Assembly: GCA_021399435.1 (NCBI GenBank)
Contig: JAJTUP010000032.1
Coordinates: forward strand, 558,001 to 622,000
Origin: Diaporthe sp. PMI_573
Lineage: Eukaryota > Ascomycota > Sordariomycetes > Diaporthales > Diaporthaceae
Length of the DNA stretch: 64,000 nt
Reading direction: 5' to 3'
The notes beneath the pieces were generated by a model. The model had not been told where the DNA came from, ran no database searches, and saw only the letters and a program-made list of their open reading frames with translations. The position numbers and the translations under genes are program-made. Shown piece by piece: positions 57,961 to 64,000 of this stretch (positions within the stretch are counted from its first letter, which is position 1; every line of letters starts with the position of its first letter).

Positions 57961-58326
57961 CAAAGAGTGCTAGAACACATTAAAACCAGTACTACTGTTG
58001 GAATAGCACCTGGTTGGATCGCACGTAGTTCGATAGGTTGGGTGTGCTTAGTCAGCCGGGGGCCCGGCTGGGGAAGAGTGGCCTCTTCGTTTCCCTGAGC
58101 AAGCAATAATCAGAACCAACCAACAGACCCCTACGTACGTACGTACTATCGCCATATGGCAAAGGCCATTCAACACTGATCAGTGGATTGCTTGGCAATT
58201 CACAGATTGGCAAGAGTGAAGAGACGAGGCTCGCACAAAGACGACTAGCCTGAGGAGATTGCAGCAGTGCTGCCTCGGGAGAGTCGGGAATCGTGCGCTT
58301 GTGCTATATCCCAGGAGTACTTCTTT

Positions 58327-58464
58327 CTTTTGCTTGAGAAGGCGTCTACTACGGTAGAAGCTGAGATCGTACGAGAAAGAAGCACTTCTAGACGACTAAA
58401 CTACTCAATTCTTTTGCTTGAGAAGGTCTTCACTATTGTGAAGGCTGAGATCGTACGAGAAAGA
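58327..58464. repeat. 54-bp direct duplication in the Copia leader
   Basis: 58327-58380 and 58411-58464 both run CTTTTGCTTGAGAAGG ... GCTGAGATCGTACGAGAAAG, with a diverged middle. A third partial relative (TGCTTGAGAAGTTGTTGCCG) lies in the trailer at about 63907. Confidence 0.85.
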
Positions 58465-58526
58465 GTAGCAAGGTGTGCGCCATTGCACAACTATACAACC
58501 CCAGACTATACGAGACGACATAGTCT

Positions 58527-61500
58527 ATGTATATATCAACAACTCGATTCGCACGATACGACGCGAAGACCACCACCATGTCAAACCCGACAACTCCGGA
58601 AGAACAGTCCCAGACTGAGGCGAGCAATAGCCAAATCCATCACCAGCTGACATACGAAGAAGTTCGAGGGGAAAGCACTATCCCGATGTCAGTATGGCGG
58701 AGCCGTACGAACCTCGAGATATGGTTTAACCCAATTGACCCTCACAACGCTCCCACGGAAGCCGAGCTGAACACATACATCGCACGGCTTACATGGGAAA
58801 TAAGAACAATGGGAATATCTAGAAGAAATCTCCAAATATCTTTGTGCGAGGACTTTGAGGGATGGACCGAGGTCCAATACAACACAGTGGATCGTCTGTT
58901 CCTAAAGGAGCTGATTGAGGCCCTTACAAACAAGGGAATCGAAGTCCCACCCGCACGAAGATATGGAGAACGAATACGCCGCCTGGTAGAGAAGACCCTA
59001 GAGGAAATCGAAGAAGAGGAAGCTCGGGAGGCCCAGGCACGGGCTAGCAAGGGGAAACAACCCGTACGGTTCCAGGAACGAACTCCTGTTCCGATACAAA
59101 CCCGAGACCCTCTCGCTGAGGAAGAACCAGGTGACCGTGTTGCCCAAGAGTCCCTCGCGCGAACAGAACCGCAAGGCGTATATTCTGAGAACATTCAGCC
59201 TACGGTAGAGACACACCAGAGTCCCCCAGCACCAGCCGAGTACAGAAGCCCACCCGCACGAAGCGTATATAATGGAAGTCAAGAGCCAGGATATATGCCG
59301 AGGCCACAAACGGTGGATTCACAGGCTGTACGACAAGCACCCCCGGGAGCACGGTTTTCGCACGAGGTGGAAGCATACCCACAACTACCTCGCACGGAAG
59401 ACATAACGCGACCTATACCTGCTCGGAGCAATGGGTACGACCTTCCCCCAACACGAATTGTTTACAATAACCCAATTGAGCCACAGCAAAGCTCACAATT
59501 TTCAAAGCATTGGAACAAGAAGCGAAACTATACTGGGAAGCCGTACGATTTGCTATACGATAAGACTCGAGCATTCATCGCAACATGTCGCCACACCGGC
59601 GTACGAGAGGATCAATATCACGCTGTCTTCCCTATTATCTTAGAAGACCGTGCGTACGACTTCTGGCTAGAACATATTGGCCCAGAAAGGCGTTGGGACG
59701 AAGTATATACCCTCATGGATATGCACTTTAACACCAACACCAATCACAACCAATACTGGGCAGACTGGACTACGCTCTCTTTCGTACAACTCAAACAGGA
59801 GAATCCCGACAAGAAACAAGTCGAGGTACTAGAGATGCTCTTGGATCGACTACAGCTCGTACAAAGGGCCCTAGGACAAGGGTACCAAGGAGAGATCCCC
59901 CTTCGCACGGCTGTGGTTCGAGCATGCCGAGGGGTCCCAGAGTTCGAACTAGCTATCATGCAGCAAAAGCCTACGTGCGAAGGTCTCTTTTCAGACCTTC
60001 GAGGAGCTATTCAAGTAGCCCAAGACAGGAAGACAACTACTCGCCAGTTTACGTACGAAGCAGCCCCAGGAATCAATTTTGTGGACAGGCGGTACAGAGC
60101 ACCTTTTAAGGACCGCCAGAGGATACCGTACGGAAAAGGGAGGCCTGTGAACTATCAGGGACAGGCAACTATTCCCTATCGTGCGGGATCTGCTTCCAGA
60201 CAGCCTTTTAGAAGCCGCACCTTCAAGAACAAAAGGTGCTTCGTGTGTAAGAAGGAAGGCTGTTGGTCTACAAACCATCCAGAGGCTGAGAGGAAACGTA
60301 TGAGAGACCAATACCTCCAAGCCTGCCAGGTTATAGGGGAAGAACCTCCGTACGACTCAAATGAGAGAGGCTTTCAGAGCTTTCTTCTTGAGTACGAAGG
60401 CGAGAACCAGGTGCGGAGTGTAGCGGAGAGTTCGGAAGAGGAGGACTCGGAGGGCCAAGCAACCGAAGGTTCCTCTAGTTACCTCCTCGATGCCGCTTTC
60501 TTTCACCGTACGACCGGAGAAGACATATACACAGCCCCAAAGACCACAGAAGCAACCCAATTCGTGCTACACAATCCCTATAGTACGAAGTATCAGGGAG
60601 AACTGTGGGATACTGGAGCTGCGAAGGTCTCGACAGTTGGCAAGGCCCAAGTGCTTGCATATTTACGTGAGAACCCTCGCGCGAAGATCTCATGGACCCC
60701 AGGAGATGCCAAAGTCAAATTCGGCCCGCACGAAATAGTCTCCTCCATAGGAACTATCCAGAAGAAAAACCAACTAGGCAAAATCACCTCCTATATTCTG
60801 GATACACCTACTCCTTTCCTGCTGTCATTGCACGATGCCGACAAGCTAAAGGCATACTTCAATAATGTGGAGAATGTCATCGTACGAGAAGACGGTGTGA
60901 AGATTCCTGTGATTCGGAAATGGGGACACCCATTCTTCAACACCAGCCGTACGGAAGCAGGAGTTTTCTTCACAGAGGCAGAGCTAAGACGTCTACATAG
61001 ACGCTTTGGACATCCTCGTGCGGAAAGGCTATATAAACTGCTGAGGAACGCTGGGCACGAAGATGTGGAACAAAGTGCTCTTGAGTCTATTCAGAAGTTT
61101 TGTCACCACTGCCAATCGCACGACCAAGCCCCAAGACGGTTCAAATTCTCCATCAAAGATAAGAACCACTTCAACTATCAAGTAGTAGTTGACGTCGTGC
61201 GATTAGGGGACGACAATGTTCTACATGTTGTGGACTCAGAGACGAGTTTTCAAGCCGCTACGTTTCTAAAGTCCCTCTCCGCACGAGACACTTGGAACGC
61301 CCTATGCCGGTGCTGGATATATACCTACCTCGGACCCCCAGATCACATCTCGCACGACCCAGGAACGAACTTTGCTTCTGAGGAATTCAGGAATAATGCT
61401 AAGATCCTGGGTATATCGTGCGAAGAGATGCCAGTTGAGGCACATTGGGCAGTTGGGAAAGTTGAGAGACTACACGCTCCTCTCCGGAGGGCGTACGATA

Positions 61501-63716
61501 TTCTTACCCAAGAAATCGGCCATATTACAGACAAGGAGACGATACTCCAGATGGCAATCAAGGCTCTCAACGATACCGCTGGCCCAAATGGTATCGTACC
61601 AACCCTTCTTGTTTTCGGGGCATACCCCCGAATCAACCAAGACTCACCACCATCGCCGGAAATCACACTTCGTGCGGAAGCAATTCAGAAGGCCATGAAG
61701 ATGCTCCGAAAGATTCGCGCAGAGGTAGAGATCAACCGCGCGATCAACACAAGAAACGGCCCAGATCTACACGAAGTTCTGTCCCTGCCACTGGGCGCTG
61801 AAGTGATGATTTGGAGGGAAAACAAAGGATGGACCGGACCGCACGAACTCAAGGCCAGAGACGGGCACAACTTGACTATCGAAACAGTCAATGGACCGGC
61901 TACCTTCAGAGCTACCCAGGCCAAAGCATATCATCGTGCGGAGACCCAACATGACGAAGTTGAAGACGAGATCATCGTGCGACCAGAGCCAGAGCAGCCA
62001 AGGAGGCGAGGACGACCTCGGAAAACAACCGCACGATACTTCCAAGTATTCTTGACCCAGAAGGAGAAGGATAACTTCGAGTTAGCCCTCAAACTCCGTG
62101 CGGATAACGTTATCAATGTGCCAGGAGGTCCCTTTGAGGAATCAGATGCTCTGGAACTGAATGCCCTTGCAAATGAAAATGTGTTTTCCTTCGTACGATA
62201 CAAACCAGAGGGAATTCACAAAGGGCTTCGAGTATACAAGACGCGAATGGTACGAGAGATCAAGAACAAGTCTACCAAGCCTATAGAGAAATCCAGGCTG
62301 GTCGTACAAGGTTATGGGGATGAGGAAAAGCAAGCTATCCTCACCCAGGCCCCAACTATTCAGAGGATGAGCCAGAGGCTAACCTTTGCCTTGGGCCCTA
62401 CCCTCGTACGAAATTTTGGGGCACAAGGGGAACTCAGGGACATCACTCAAGCCTATACTCAATCTGAGGACAGGCTGACTAGGACAATCATCGCACGATT
62501 ACCTGCAGAGCTTGAGGAGAGGTACCCCGAAGGAACAGTCCTCTTGATATCGAAGCCATTGTACGGGCTTGCGGAATCAGGGCTCTACTGGTTCAAAACA
62601 TATCATTCGCACCACACGGAGGCTCTAGGGATGAAGGTCTCTACGTACGACCCATGTTTGCTATATACCACAGATGGCCCAGAGAACTTTGCTATCACAG
62701 GTATGCAAACAGACGATACCTTTACTTTTGCAACTGAGCCCTTCTCGCACAAGGAGGAGGAGGAGTTGAGGAAGAAGAACTTCCGTGCGAAGCCCAAGAC
62801 TATTCTGACCCCAGAACAACCAATTGAGTTCAACGGAGGCAGAATTAGTCTCGAAGGGGAGAACATCACCTCCGTACAAAAGGGACAGGCGAGTCAACTC
62901 AGCCTGGTTGACCCTCGTGCGGAAGACGCACCTCAACAGTACATAGCCCAAAGGGCAAGGGGAGCATACATTGCTTCCATCTGCCAACCCGAGGCTTCGT
63001 ACGACCTATCAGCAGCAGCACAAGTCAAAGAGCCAGAGGAAAAAGACATCGAGGCTCTGAACGCGCGAATAGAGTGGCAAATGAGGAACCCATCCAGGGG
63101 TCTAACATATGTGCCACTTGACCTCGCACGAGCAAAACTGTACATCTTCACAGATGGATCTTTTGCAAACAACAAGGACCTAAGCTCACAGCTAGGGTTC
63201 ATCATCGTGCTGGCTACGGAAACAGGTCGTACGGAGAATGACTTTGAGATCCAGGGCAATATCATCCACTGGAGCTCTACGAAGTGCAAAAGAGTTACAC
63301 GAAGCGTTCTGGCTAGTGAACTCTATGGCATGACTACGGGCTTTGATAGTGGGATTGCCCTTAGTACGACGCTCAACCGGATACTAGACTCTTTGAACAT
63401 ACCACGAGTCCCACTGGTGATCTGCTCAGACTCACGATCTCTGTACGAATGCCTAGTCAAGCTAGGAACTACAGATGAGAAGAGACTGATGATAGATATC
63501 ATGTCCCTCCGAGAGTCGTACGAAAAGAAAGAGATCTCAGAGGTACGATGGATCGATGGCAAAGACAACCCGGCAGATGCCTGTACGAAGAAGACCCCCA
63601 ACCAGGCCCTGGAACGCCTCATATCTACAAATACGCTCAGAATTCGAATCGAAGCGTTTGTGGATAGGCTGGACAAAAAGGAACCGCACGAAGCAAAGGA
63701 AGCTACCGTGCGATGA
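58527..63716 (+). CDS. Copia gag-pol polyprotein, 1729 codons, intact
   Basis: ATG 58527 is the first in-frame start; a second at 58578 (MSNPTTPEEQ) is also possible. Order is Copia-type, with integrase before RT. Gag: NYTGKPYDLLYDKTRAFIAT and the zinc knuckle CFVCKKEGCWSTNH (about residue 570). Protease: GELWDTGAAKVSTVG. Integrase: HRRFGHPRAERLYKLL with CHHCQSHDQ, then the triad in VVVDVVRLGDD, HISHDPGTNFASEEF, AVGKVERLHAPLRRA. RT: RLVVQGYGDEEK, LRDITQAYTQSEDRL (first Asp), LYGLAESGLYWF, and MQTDDTFTF where most Copia have YVDD. RNase H: IFTDGSFANNKD, LASELYGMTT, ICSDSRSLYEC, DGKDNPADACTKKT. Gag and pol are one frame. No stop or shift, so it may be active. Confidence 0.93.
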   Translation: MYISTTRFARYDAKTTTMSNPTTPEEQSQTEASNSQIHHQLTYEEVRGESTIPMSVWRSRTNLEIWFNPIDPHNAPTEAELNTYIARLTWEIRTMGISRRNLQISLCEDFEGWTEVQYNTVDRLFLKELIEALTNKGIEVPPARRYGERIRRLVEKTLEEIEEEEAREAQARASKGKQPVRFQERTPVPIQTRDPLAEEEPGDRVAQESLARTEPQGVYSENIQPTVETHQSPPAPAEYRSPPARSVYNGSQEPGYMPRPQTVDSQAVRQAPPGARFSHEVEAYPQLPRTEDITRPIPARSNGYDLPPTRIVYNNPIEPQQSSQFSKHWNKKRNYTGKPYDLLYDKTRAFIATCRHTGVREDQYHAVFPIILEDRAYDFWLEHIGPERRWDEVYTLMDMHFNTNTNHNQYWADWTTLSFVQLKQENPDKKQVEVLEMLLDRLQLVQRALGQGYQGEIPLRTAVVRACRGVPEFELAIMQQKPTCEGLFSDLRGAIQVAQDRKTTTRQFTYEAAPGINFVDRRYRAPFKDRQRIPYGKGRPVNYQGQATIPYRAGSASRQPFRSRTFKNKRCFVCKKEGCWSTNHPEAERKRMRDQYLQACQVIGEEPPYDSNERGFQSFLLEYEGENQVRSVAESSEEEDSEGQATEGSSSYLLDAAFFHRTTGEDIYTAPKTTEATQFVLHNPYSTKYQGELWDTGAAKVSTVGKAQVLAYLRENPRAKISWTPGDAKVKFGPHEIVSSIGTIQKKNQLGKITSYILDTPTPFLLSLHDADKLKAYFNNVENVIVREDGVKIPVIRKWGHPFFNTSRTEAGVFFTEAELRRLHRRFGHPRAERLYKLLRNAGHEDVEQSALESIQKFCHHCQSHDQAPRRFKFSIKDKNHFNYQVVVDVVRLGDDNVLHVVDSETSFQAATFLKSLSARDTWNALCRCWIYTYLGPPDHISHDPGTNFASEEFRNNAKILGISCEEMPVEAHWAVGKVERLHAPLRRAYDILTQEIGHITDKETILQMAIKALNDTAGPNGIVPTLLVFGAYPRINQDSPPSPEITLRAEAIQKAMKMLRKIRAEVEINRAINTRNGPDLHEVLSLPLGAEVMIWRENKGWTGPHELKARDGHNLTIETVNGPATFRATQAKAYHRAETQHDEVEDEIIVRPEPEQPRRRGRPRKTTARYFQVFLTQKEKDNFELALKLRADNVINVPGGPFEESDALELNALANENVFSFVRYKPEGIHKGLRVYKTRMVREIKNKSTKPIEKSRLVVQGYGDEEKQAILTQAPTIQRMSQRLTFALGPTLVRNFGAQGELRDITQAYTQSEDRLTRTIIARLPAELEERYPEGTVLLISKPLYGLAESGLYWFKTYHSHHTEALGMKVSTYDPCLLYTTDGPENFAITGMQTDDTFTFATEPFSHKEEEELRKKNFRAKPKTILTPEQPIEFNGGRISLEGENITSVQKGQASQLSLVDPRAEDAPQQYIAQRARGAYIASICQPEASYDLSAAAQVKEPEEKDIEALNARIEWQMRNPSRGLTYVPLDLARAKLYIFTDGSFANNKDLSSQLGFIIVLATETGRTENDFEIQGNIIHWSSTKCKRVTRSVLASELYGMTTGFDSGIALSTTLNRILDSLNIPRVPLVICSDSRSLYECLVKLGTTDEKRLMIDIMSLRESYEKKEISEVRWIDGKDNPADACTKKTPNQALERLISTNTLRIRIEAFVDRLDKKEPHEAKEATVR

Positions 63717-64000
63717 AGGAAGAAAGAAGTCGAGGGAAGAAAGGGAGAGGAAGGGCGTTTAAACATTCGCCGGGACAGCGTGCGAGTGTGCGCTGTCGCC
63801 GTATCTTCCCTTTACGGCTGGGCAAGTGCTCACCCGTACGAATGAATCACTGACGGCAAAGGAAAATGTTGCTGAAAGTGCTGCAAGAAAGTTTCCTTTG
63901 TCTGCTGCTTGAGAAGTTGTTGCCGTGCGAAAAGGAGGAAGAAAAGGGGGAGAAAAGTGTCGTCGTGATACCCGGGGGCCAAACGGTTTTCCTGGTGTAC

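Follow-up and report, generated by a model that had tools for sequence, protein, structure and literature searches.

Icosahedral RNA viruses carry packaging signals, which are many short degenerate sites along one RNA, shown in stem-loops, and the DNA uptake sequences of Neisseria and Haemophilus are short words that occur across genes above chance and are spread over the bacterial chromosomes. A comparable situation in a mobile element is described for VANDAL21 of Arabidopsis, where the motif density over one transposable element family directs the anti-silencing protein VANC (Hosaka et al., 2017, PMC5735166, consulted in excerpts). Here, we describe a dense array of the 8-bp word YCGYRCGR in a GalEa-type Copia retrotransposon of the ascomycete Diaporthe sp. 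PMI_573, which lies at the end of a 64,000-nucleotide stretch of contig JAJTUP010000032.1 (positions 558,001 to 622,000 of the forward strand; this whole stretch is called the window, and its first letter is position 1). The array covers the entire element at regular intervals, is independent of coding, is under selective constraint in the coding sequence and turns over between related families at steady density. The excess over codon-preserving shuffles, the spacing, the turnover among families, the constraint at third codon positions and the existence of a motif-free sister together argue that selection acts on the nucleic acid. If this is true, the element represents a rare case of strong and regular selection at this level across every codon phase of a mobile element. 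Besides, an 8-bp word, a clade with it and a colinear sister without it offer a handle on how long terminal repeat (LTR) retrotransposons, in a fungus with signs of repeat-induced point mutation (RIP), evade or exploit host chromatin or distinguish their own RNA from that of the cell.

What the element shares with VANDAL21 is a short dense motif that is particular to one transposable element family, with related families differing in having it; the array is a binding array in VANDAL21 and a putative one here. In contrast, VANDAL21 is a DNA transposon with a dedicated VANC gene, and its motifs, most of them in non-coding tandem repeats, point the same way and have spread as repeats formed (Hosaka et al., 2017, PMC5735166; Sasaki et al., 2023, PMC10398659; both as far as the excerpts go). 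The retrotransposon described here has coding and non-coding sites, both orientations of the asymmetric centres (CGCACG 46 and CGTGCG 38 over four families), 51 cores in all phases of its open reading frame (ORF), family differences that arose by substitution, regular spacing and no extra gene that we could see. Since the anatomy differs in most details, we speak of a likeness of working and not of membership. RNA-virus packaging signals are alike in their many short sites, whereas the present site is palindromic and has no loop context. DNA uptake sequences are likewise a dispersed excess word, whereas the array here is regular and confined to one mobile element lineage.

With the fungal GalEa elements, as portrayed in the excerpts of Donnart et al. 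(2017, PMC5445492), the window element has in common the LTR ends, the palindrome CHSeq1, the C2C4C4H knuckle, the KSRLV, QTDD, CQPEA and ADxxTK signatures, one large ORF and a length within range. These excerpts describe a CHS palindrome by the 5' LTR and no interspersed motif, whereas the window element has an array over its whole length. The mention in the first-pass annotation of interspersed motifs in some fungal Copia elements is thus not borne out by this source. No description of such a motif in Copia elements was found in the literature searched (subscription papers and preprints aside), and absence there is not absence from print.

Excess, spacing and constraint of the motif

The element and its motif sites are arranged as follows (window positions).

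57996 to 64361, + strand: Copia retrotransposon, GalEa-type, family A, window copy (L029), 6366 bp, with LTRs delimited by self-comparison; runs past the window end at 64000
58527 to 63716, + strand: one long ORF of 1729 amino acids, from Gag to RNase H, with 51 CGYRCG cores
58133 to 63930: fitted motif sites, 78 up to the window end and 84 with the rest of the element, at roughly 75 bp per site
58231 to 58490: non-coding leader sites TCGCACAA at 58231, TCGTACGA at 58367, TCGTACGA at 58451 and TTGCACAA at 58483
63717 to 63930: non-coding trailer sites within the window at 63778, 63834 and 63923, the first two polymorphic among copies
Examples of exact 8-mers: 58367, 58451, 58549, 58703, 58780, 58951, 59062, 59155, 59254, 59358, 60880, 61116, 62191, 62997, 63516, 63834, 63923

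Between 58365 and 63932, the exact word YCGYRCGR occurs 47 times and its core CGYRCG 56 times, whereas window positions 1 to 56,000 contain 9 and 35. Allowing one mismatch, 80 sites lie in 58101 to 64000 versus about 17 per 5.57 kb in the remaining window. The first-pass annotation, which had counted roughly 70 copies, gave a fair figure, and the examples that it listed are present, at coordinates shifted by 0 to 4 bases. Across the genome (83.7 Mb in 217 contigs) the exact word is found 14,892 times, or 0.18 per kb compared with 8.4 per kb in the element, and a control, the word reversed without being complemented, is more frequent (23,031). Therefore, the motif is no general feature of this genome.

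The comparison with codon-preserving shuffles, set beforehand as one of two refuting tests, came out clearly against refutation: the ORF holds 51 cores versus 6.0 ± 2.3 (maximum 17) and 43 exact words versus 3.1 ± 1.6 (maximum 10) in 2,000 shuffles. As had been noted at first sight, every codon phase takes part, with 16, 17 and 18 cores versus 1.2, 2.3 and 2.6 expected. Ranked by over-representation, the top four hexamers of the ORF include CGTACG, CGCACG and CGTGCG. One-mismatch sites show no overall excess (23 outside cores versus 28.8 in the ORF shuffles); only certain kinds are enriched. The use of all three phases, the non-coding sites in leader and trailer and the motif-free colinear sister agree with the early claim that protein sequence does not explain the motif, and the shuffles in family A and in the other families rule out a protein or codon explanation.

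The first-pass annotation had put the motif at about every 60-100 bp; this density holds, with the amendment that the sites are also regularly spaced. Core gaps in family A have a coefficient of variation (CV) of 0.53 versus 0.97 for random placement, and only 2 are shorter than 40 bp versus 18.7 expected. For the fitted sites the CV falls to 0.43, while the lowest value among 20,000 random sets is 0.64. Most core gaps above 120 bp (12 of 16) contain a one-mismatch site, and such sites shun the vicinity of cores: their frequency per 100 positions is 0.07 at a distance of 8-20 bp, 1.28 at 60-80 bp and zero at 80-100 bp.

Constraint is visible among eight family-A copies (L009-L015 and L029, of which L010, L011 and L015 are incomplete). 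Of 69 motif places, 64 are intact in all copies that cover them, and 5 are polymorphic. At third codon positions, 1 of 68 motif CG columns is variable, compared with 186 of 1,627 other third positions (Fisher p 0.005) and with 16 of 113 third-position CpG columns outside the motif (p 0.003). The motif is thus conserved relative to other synonymous sites, so that the second refuting test set by the first-pass annotation was passed as well.

Related families, site turnover and a motif-free sister

Three further families come from the same genome: B (L022, L024), C (L020, L019) and D (L016, L021). Copy numbers are lower bounds, since the search of the genome gave a list of best candidates. The family statistics do not include L018, which has no frame of 300 amino acids, or L026, L027, L028, L034, L040 and L041, which are fragments or low in GC; B, C and D entered shuffles and fit with one copy each, and pooled counts include sites shared by descent. 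Nucleotide identities are 62.5% for A-B, 62.8% for A-C, 70.5% for A-D, 65.3% for B-C, 56.6% for B-D and 57.7% for C-D. All three families show the excess over codon-preserving shuffles, with 26 cores versus 3.8 in B (longest ORF), 33 versus 5.9 in C and 20 versus 3.6 in D. Family B also has a non-coding trailer of ~1.5 kb after its ORF (L022, 6255-7750), which holds 15 cores.

Fitting the motif by expectation-maximisation on the + strand of families A-D gave about 270 sites, one per 72 bp, with the consensus [TC][C(t)]G[T(c)][A(g)]C[G(a)][A(g)], i.e., YCGYRCGR in which T may also stand at position 2 and A at position 7. The fitted density is 13-15 sites per kb in A-D, compared with 1.1 in the sister family E and 1.3 in the remaining window. 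Similar densities occur in L023, L037 and L039 (11.9-14.5) and in L035 and L036 (13.1-13.6), which belong to family A by 97-99% amino acid identity; L017 has 7.7. L037, which is 35-57% identical to A at the amino acid level over two stretches, has 11 cores versus 1.4 and 6 versus 1.6 in its two largest frames. L039 (the locus of L026) has no clear excess of ORF cores (3 versus 1.2 expected), though it carries 13.6 fitted sites per kb.

Sites are retained in place at 16 of 59 for A to B and 17 of 43 for B to A, 20 of 45 for A to C and 20 of 36 for C to A, and 14 of 29 for B to C and 14 of 39 for C to B. This amounts to 27-56%, while patterns with permuted letters reach 10-17% (p 4e-7 to 6e-4), and more than half of the sites differ in place in five of the six comparisons. 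Even among 50 retained pairs, 17 show a letter change inside the consensus. Spacing is alike in the families: the fitted mean gaps are 75.6, 68.2, 66.2 and 65.0 bp in A, B, C and D (CV 0.41-0.57), and core spacing in B, C and D is also more even than random (p 0.01, 0.02 and 0.05). As the sites are kept above controls, yet mostly displaced, with like spacing, we conclude that they turn over under a density constraint. The longest fitted gap is 169 bp in A and 228 bp in B, and at least one site falls in 99.9%, 98.1%, 100% and 99.9% of 165-bp windows in A, B, C and D, compared with a Poisson expectation of 88.7-91.9% (A 88.7%). Residues of motif codons are conserved to a similar degree as other residues between A and B (65% versus 72%) and between A and C (67% versus 63%), and to a lesser degree between A and E (38% versus 49%).

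The sister family E (L030) has an open ORF of 1718 amino acids that is colinear with A at 48% amino acid identity by alignment. It shows no motif excess (4 cores versus 4.9 expected; 6 versus 3.6 in a second copy, L038), and 18.6% of its 165-bp windows hold a site (Poisson 16.5%). Three other Copia loci (L031-L033) show no core excess either, so neither a GalEa-like nor a Copia life cycle in itself requires the array. An alternative 8-bp palindromic motif in E or in these three loci was rejected, with a best z of 3.7 versus 21.3 for A. The leader of E consists of several tandem repeats upstream of the ORF (L030, L042); within 7.8 kb, neither an LTR pair nor CHSeq1 was found for E.

These data also bear on the idea that the motif is a by-product of mutation or composition, through RIP, CpG decay, codon bias or repeat expansion. 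In its favour, it is transitions that are tolerated most at positions 2, 4, 5 and 7. However, codon-preserving shuffles stay far below the observed counts, the spacing is regular, and the site differences between families are substitutions, in columns that are for the most part free of gaps (59 of 67 A sites in the B alignment). CpG decay should yield A at position 3 and T at position 6 with the same frequency as T at position 2 and A at position 7, but the former pair is seen 6 and 0 times and the latter 27 and 39 times. RIP, for its part, removes the motif. The low-GC relatives L025, L027, L028 and L034 have RIP-like indices (TpA/ApT 1.37-1.51), which, like the GalEa type itself, would suit a fungus of the Pezizomycotina. 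In L025, which is B-like and 83% identical to B, C-to-T or G-to-A changes make up 679 of about 896 differences. Among its lost sites, 32 differ by transitions only and 1 by a transversion, i.e., the motif is lost in a dead copy. CpG decay and RIP were consequently rejected as sources, and we regard a by-product as next to negligible in probability.

Possible readers of the motif

The tolerated changes speak about the kind of reader. In the ORFs of A-D, position 2 accepts T (27 versus 8.4 expected from shuffles) and position 7, which mirrors it in the dyad, accepts A (39 versus 9.9), while positions 3-6 (GYRC) show no clear excess for any single change. The first-pass annotation had called the consensus self-complementary; this stands for the inner six bases, which are two-fold symmetric in what they tolerate, and not for the outer base, which has a weak sense-strand bias. 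The dimeric binding protein that it proposed would fit these symmetric tolerances. The four families have 163 centres, with CGTACG 69, CGCACG 46, CGTGCG 38 and CGCGCG 10, and mixed centres are slightly over-represented (p 0.02). That the non-self-complementary CGCACG and CGTGCG are not depleted speaks for a protein reading Y/R classes and not for a self-pairing site; self-pairing as RNA or DNA was rejected on the same grounds.

We tentatively favour, at a little under even confidence, a binding of the sites on double-stranded DNA that benefits the element. The array along the whole element would then be a series of putative sites, Y-C(t)-G-Y-R-C-G(a)-R, for a homodimeric, two-fold symmetric, sequence-specific DNA-binding protein, with a nearly inviolable centre GYRC, one site per 65-76 bp and at least one in nearly every nucleosome-sized stretch. 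A two-fold symmetric reader would suggest a dimer on double-stranded DNA, the continued gain of sites at new places by the element lineage would suggest a benefit to the element, and a site in nearly every nucleosome-length stretch would suggest an action on chromatin. As the likeliest function, a factor encoded by host or element and recruited along the whole length may keep the element chromatin from silencing or compaction, similar to VANC on VANDAL21. Somewhat more cautiously still, we consider it possible that the array is a second, protein-independent code: a self-renewing lattice of dimer-binding sites, at least about one per nucleosome length, whose factor coats the element and keeps it out of silenced chromatin or labels its nucleic acid as the element's own. 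Anti-silencing as the specific function, though the likeliest single one, stands well below even confidence.

Several observations weigh against DNA binding for the benefit of the element. We know of no binding protein for the motif, all evidence comes from one genome, and no polyprotein domain was found that sister E is without. The array shows no helical phasing in A-D with the five periods tried, and such phasing was rejected. The motif is no shield from RIP, as L025 keeps 3 of 36 comparable B sites versus 122 of 532 control hexamers. Non-coding motif CG columns among the family-A copies are not less variable (2 of 60 versus 17 of 1,084) and add nothing to the claim; both variable ones are in the trailer (63779, 63835). 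Besides, the outer base is tighter on the sense 3' side, with R at position 8 in 124 of 130 sites and Y at position 1 in 95 of 130, and coding sites show an enrichment for C located 3 to 4 bases upstream of their core (z about 3). In the ORFs of A-D, position 1 tolerates A and G (34 versus 5.3) and position 8 hardly C and T (5 versus 2.7). The bias has p 0.012 when pooled with a CG-matched background and p 7e-5 with a phase background; by family, B alone is significant (p 0.009) and A, C and D are not, and the 26 non-coding sites do not settle it. Together with the upstream C, it hints at a strand-specific (RNA) reader.

This hint, the weak sense polarity of the outer base above all, is the best support for the main rival, a dispersed signal for RNA packaging or handling, where Gag or another RNA-binding protein of element or host would recognise the motif at many points of the sense transcript and thereby restrict packaging, export or protection to the element's own RNA. 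The coverage of the whole transcribed element, the lineage-typical C2C4C4H knuckle in Gag and a regular spacing without helical phasing, which is natural for RNA, agree with it. Yet it is not evident why the inner six bases should tolerate changes symmetrically if they are read in single-stranded RNA. The unpaired probability at motif sites is no different from permuted-letter hexamers in five of six tests (A and B on both strands, C on the minus strand), and in the sixth (C, plus strand) the sites are more paired (unpaired 0.333 versus 0.408, p 0.008). A display of the motif in RNA stem-loops was rejected, as neither strand of A, B or C shows excess unpaired probability. We consider such an RNA signal rather unlikely.

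The dyad symmetry and the regular whole-length coverage would also suit binding of an element protein, integrase or Gag/nucleocapsid, to double-stranded complementary DNA (cDNA) for coating, nuclear import or the pre-integration complex, and the motif is limited to one clade among the elements read. No domain was found that sets the motif families apart from colinear E, however, and the AT-hook-like stretch RGRPR is also present in E. We consider cDNA binding less probable again than an RNA signal. A host mark, by which some factor of the host would single out the element for silencing or tagging through the motif, is very improbable. Dense CpG-containing sites might suit a host factor, but the motif decays in the RIP-mutated copy, and selection on the element lineage, which maintains the motif, would not do so for a silencing tag. 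For the same reason, silencing as the purpose, which had been among the first suggestions, is unlikely.

Element structure and GalEa-type features

The features that tie the element to GalEa are the following.

57996 to 58175, + strand: 5' LTR, TGTTGG...CAACA, 180 bp
58176 to 58210, + strand: Conserved Hairpin Site, with CHSeq1 CTGATCAGT at 58176-58184, a 17-bp interval and the CHSeq2-like ACAGATTGG at 58202-58210
60237 to 60278, + strand: Gag zinc knuckle C-x2-C-x4-C-x4-H, typical of fungal GalEa (PMC5445492, excerpts)
64158 to 64361: 3' LTR, beyond the window, 204 bp

According to the consulted parts of PMC5445492, fungal GalEa LTRs are bordered by TGT...CA and measure 138-311 bp, and the LTRs found here (TGTTGG...CAACA, 180 and 204 bp) agree with this. 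The same excerpts place CHSeq1 (CTGATCAGT or CTAATTAGT) right after the 5' LTR in 85% of GalEa families and describe CHSeq2 as its complement, 12-41 bp apart with a fixed A/A mismatch. Among 13 loci checked, CTGATCAGT is present in L029, L009 and L014 (A), L022 (B), L020 (C) and L021 (D), and CTAATCAGT stands in its place in the RIP-mutated L025; CHSeq1 was not found in L016, L030 and L037, nor in the unrelated L031-L033. In the window copy, ACAGATTGG follows after 17 bp and keeps the A at position 3, and two positions pair G-U instead of Watson-Crick. The protein signatures C(2)C(4)C(4)H, QTDD, CQPEA, ADxxTK (ADACTK) and KSRLV are present in A and in sister E; in family A, V stands after KSRLV where GalEa has KSRLVI.

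A 5-bp target site duplication, also a GalEa feature, is missing in all six family-A copies with both ends (L009, L012, L013, L014, L015, L029), and as one listed feature fails, we use the label "GalEa-type". Four of these six copies have LTR pairs that are 98-99.5% identical, and later recombination may account for the missing duplications. L012 and L013 have their 5' flank in common and different 3' flanks. The LTR pair of the window copy is 87.7% identical with a 24-bp length difference, compared with 97.6-99.5% in five other copies.

Pfam matches of the ORF are limited to RVT_2, gag_pre-integrs and rve, all weak and under the curated cut-offs. A single-sequence fold of an N-terminal stretch was poor (mean predicted local distance difference test score 55; no fold search was made), and no relatives of the element were confirmed in a scan of viral contigs. 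The linker between integrase and reverse transcriptase contains the AT-hook-like RRRGRPRK (62001-62024), with similar stretches in C, in E and twice in B. In the leader, a 63-bp repeat occurs in two copies, 84 bp apart and 81% identical (58318-58464), with ATCGTACGAGAAAGA in each. Finally, an (ACGT)n microsatellite at 58133-58146, which includes a CGTACG core, is found in the LTRs of families A, B and C.

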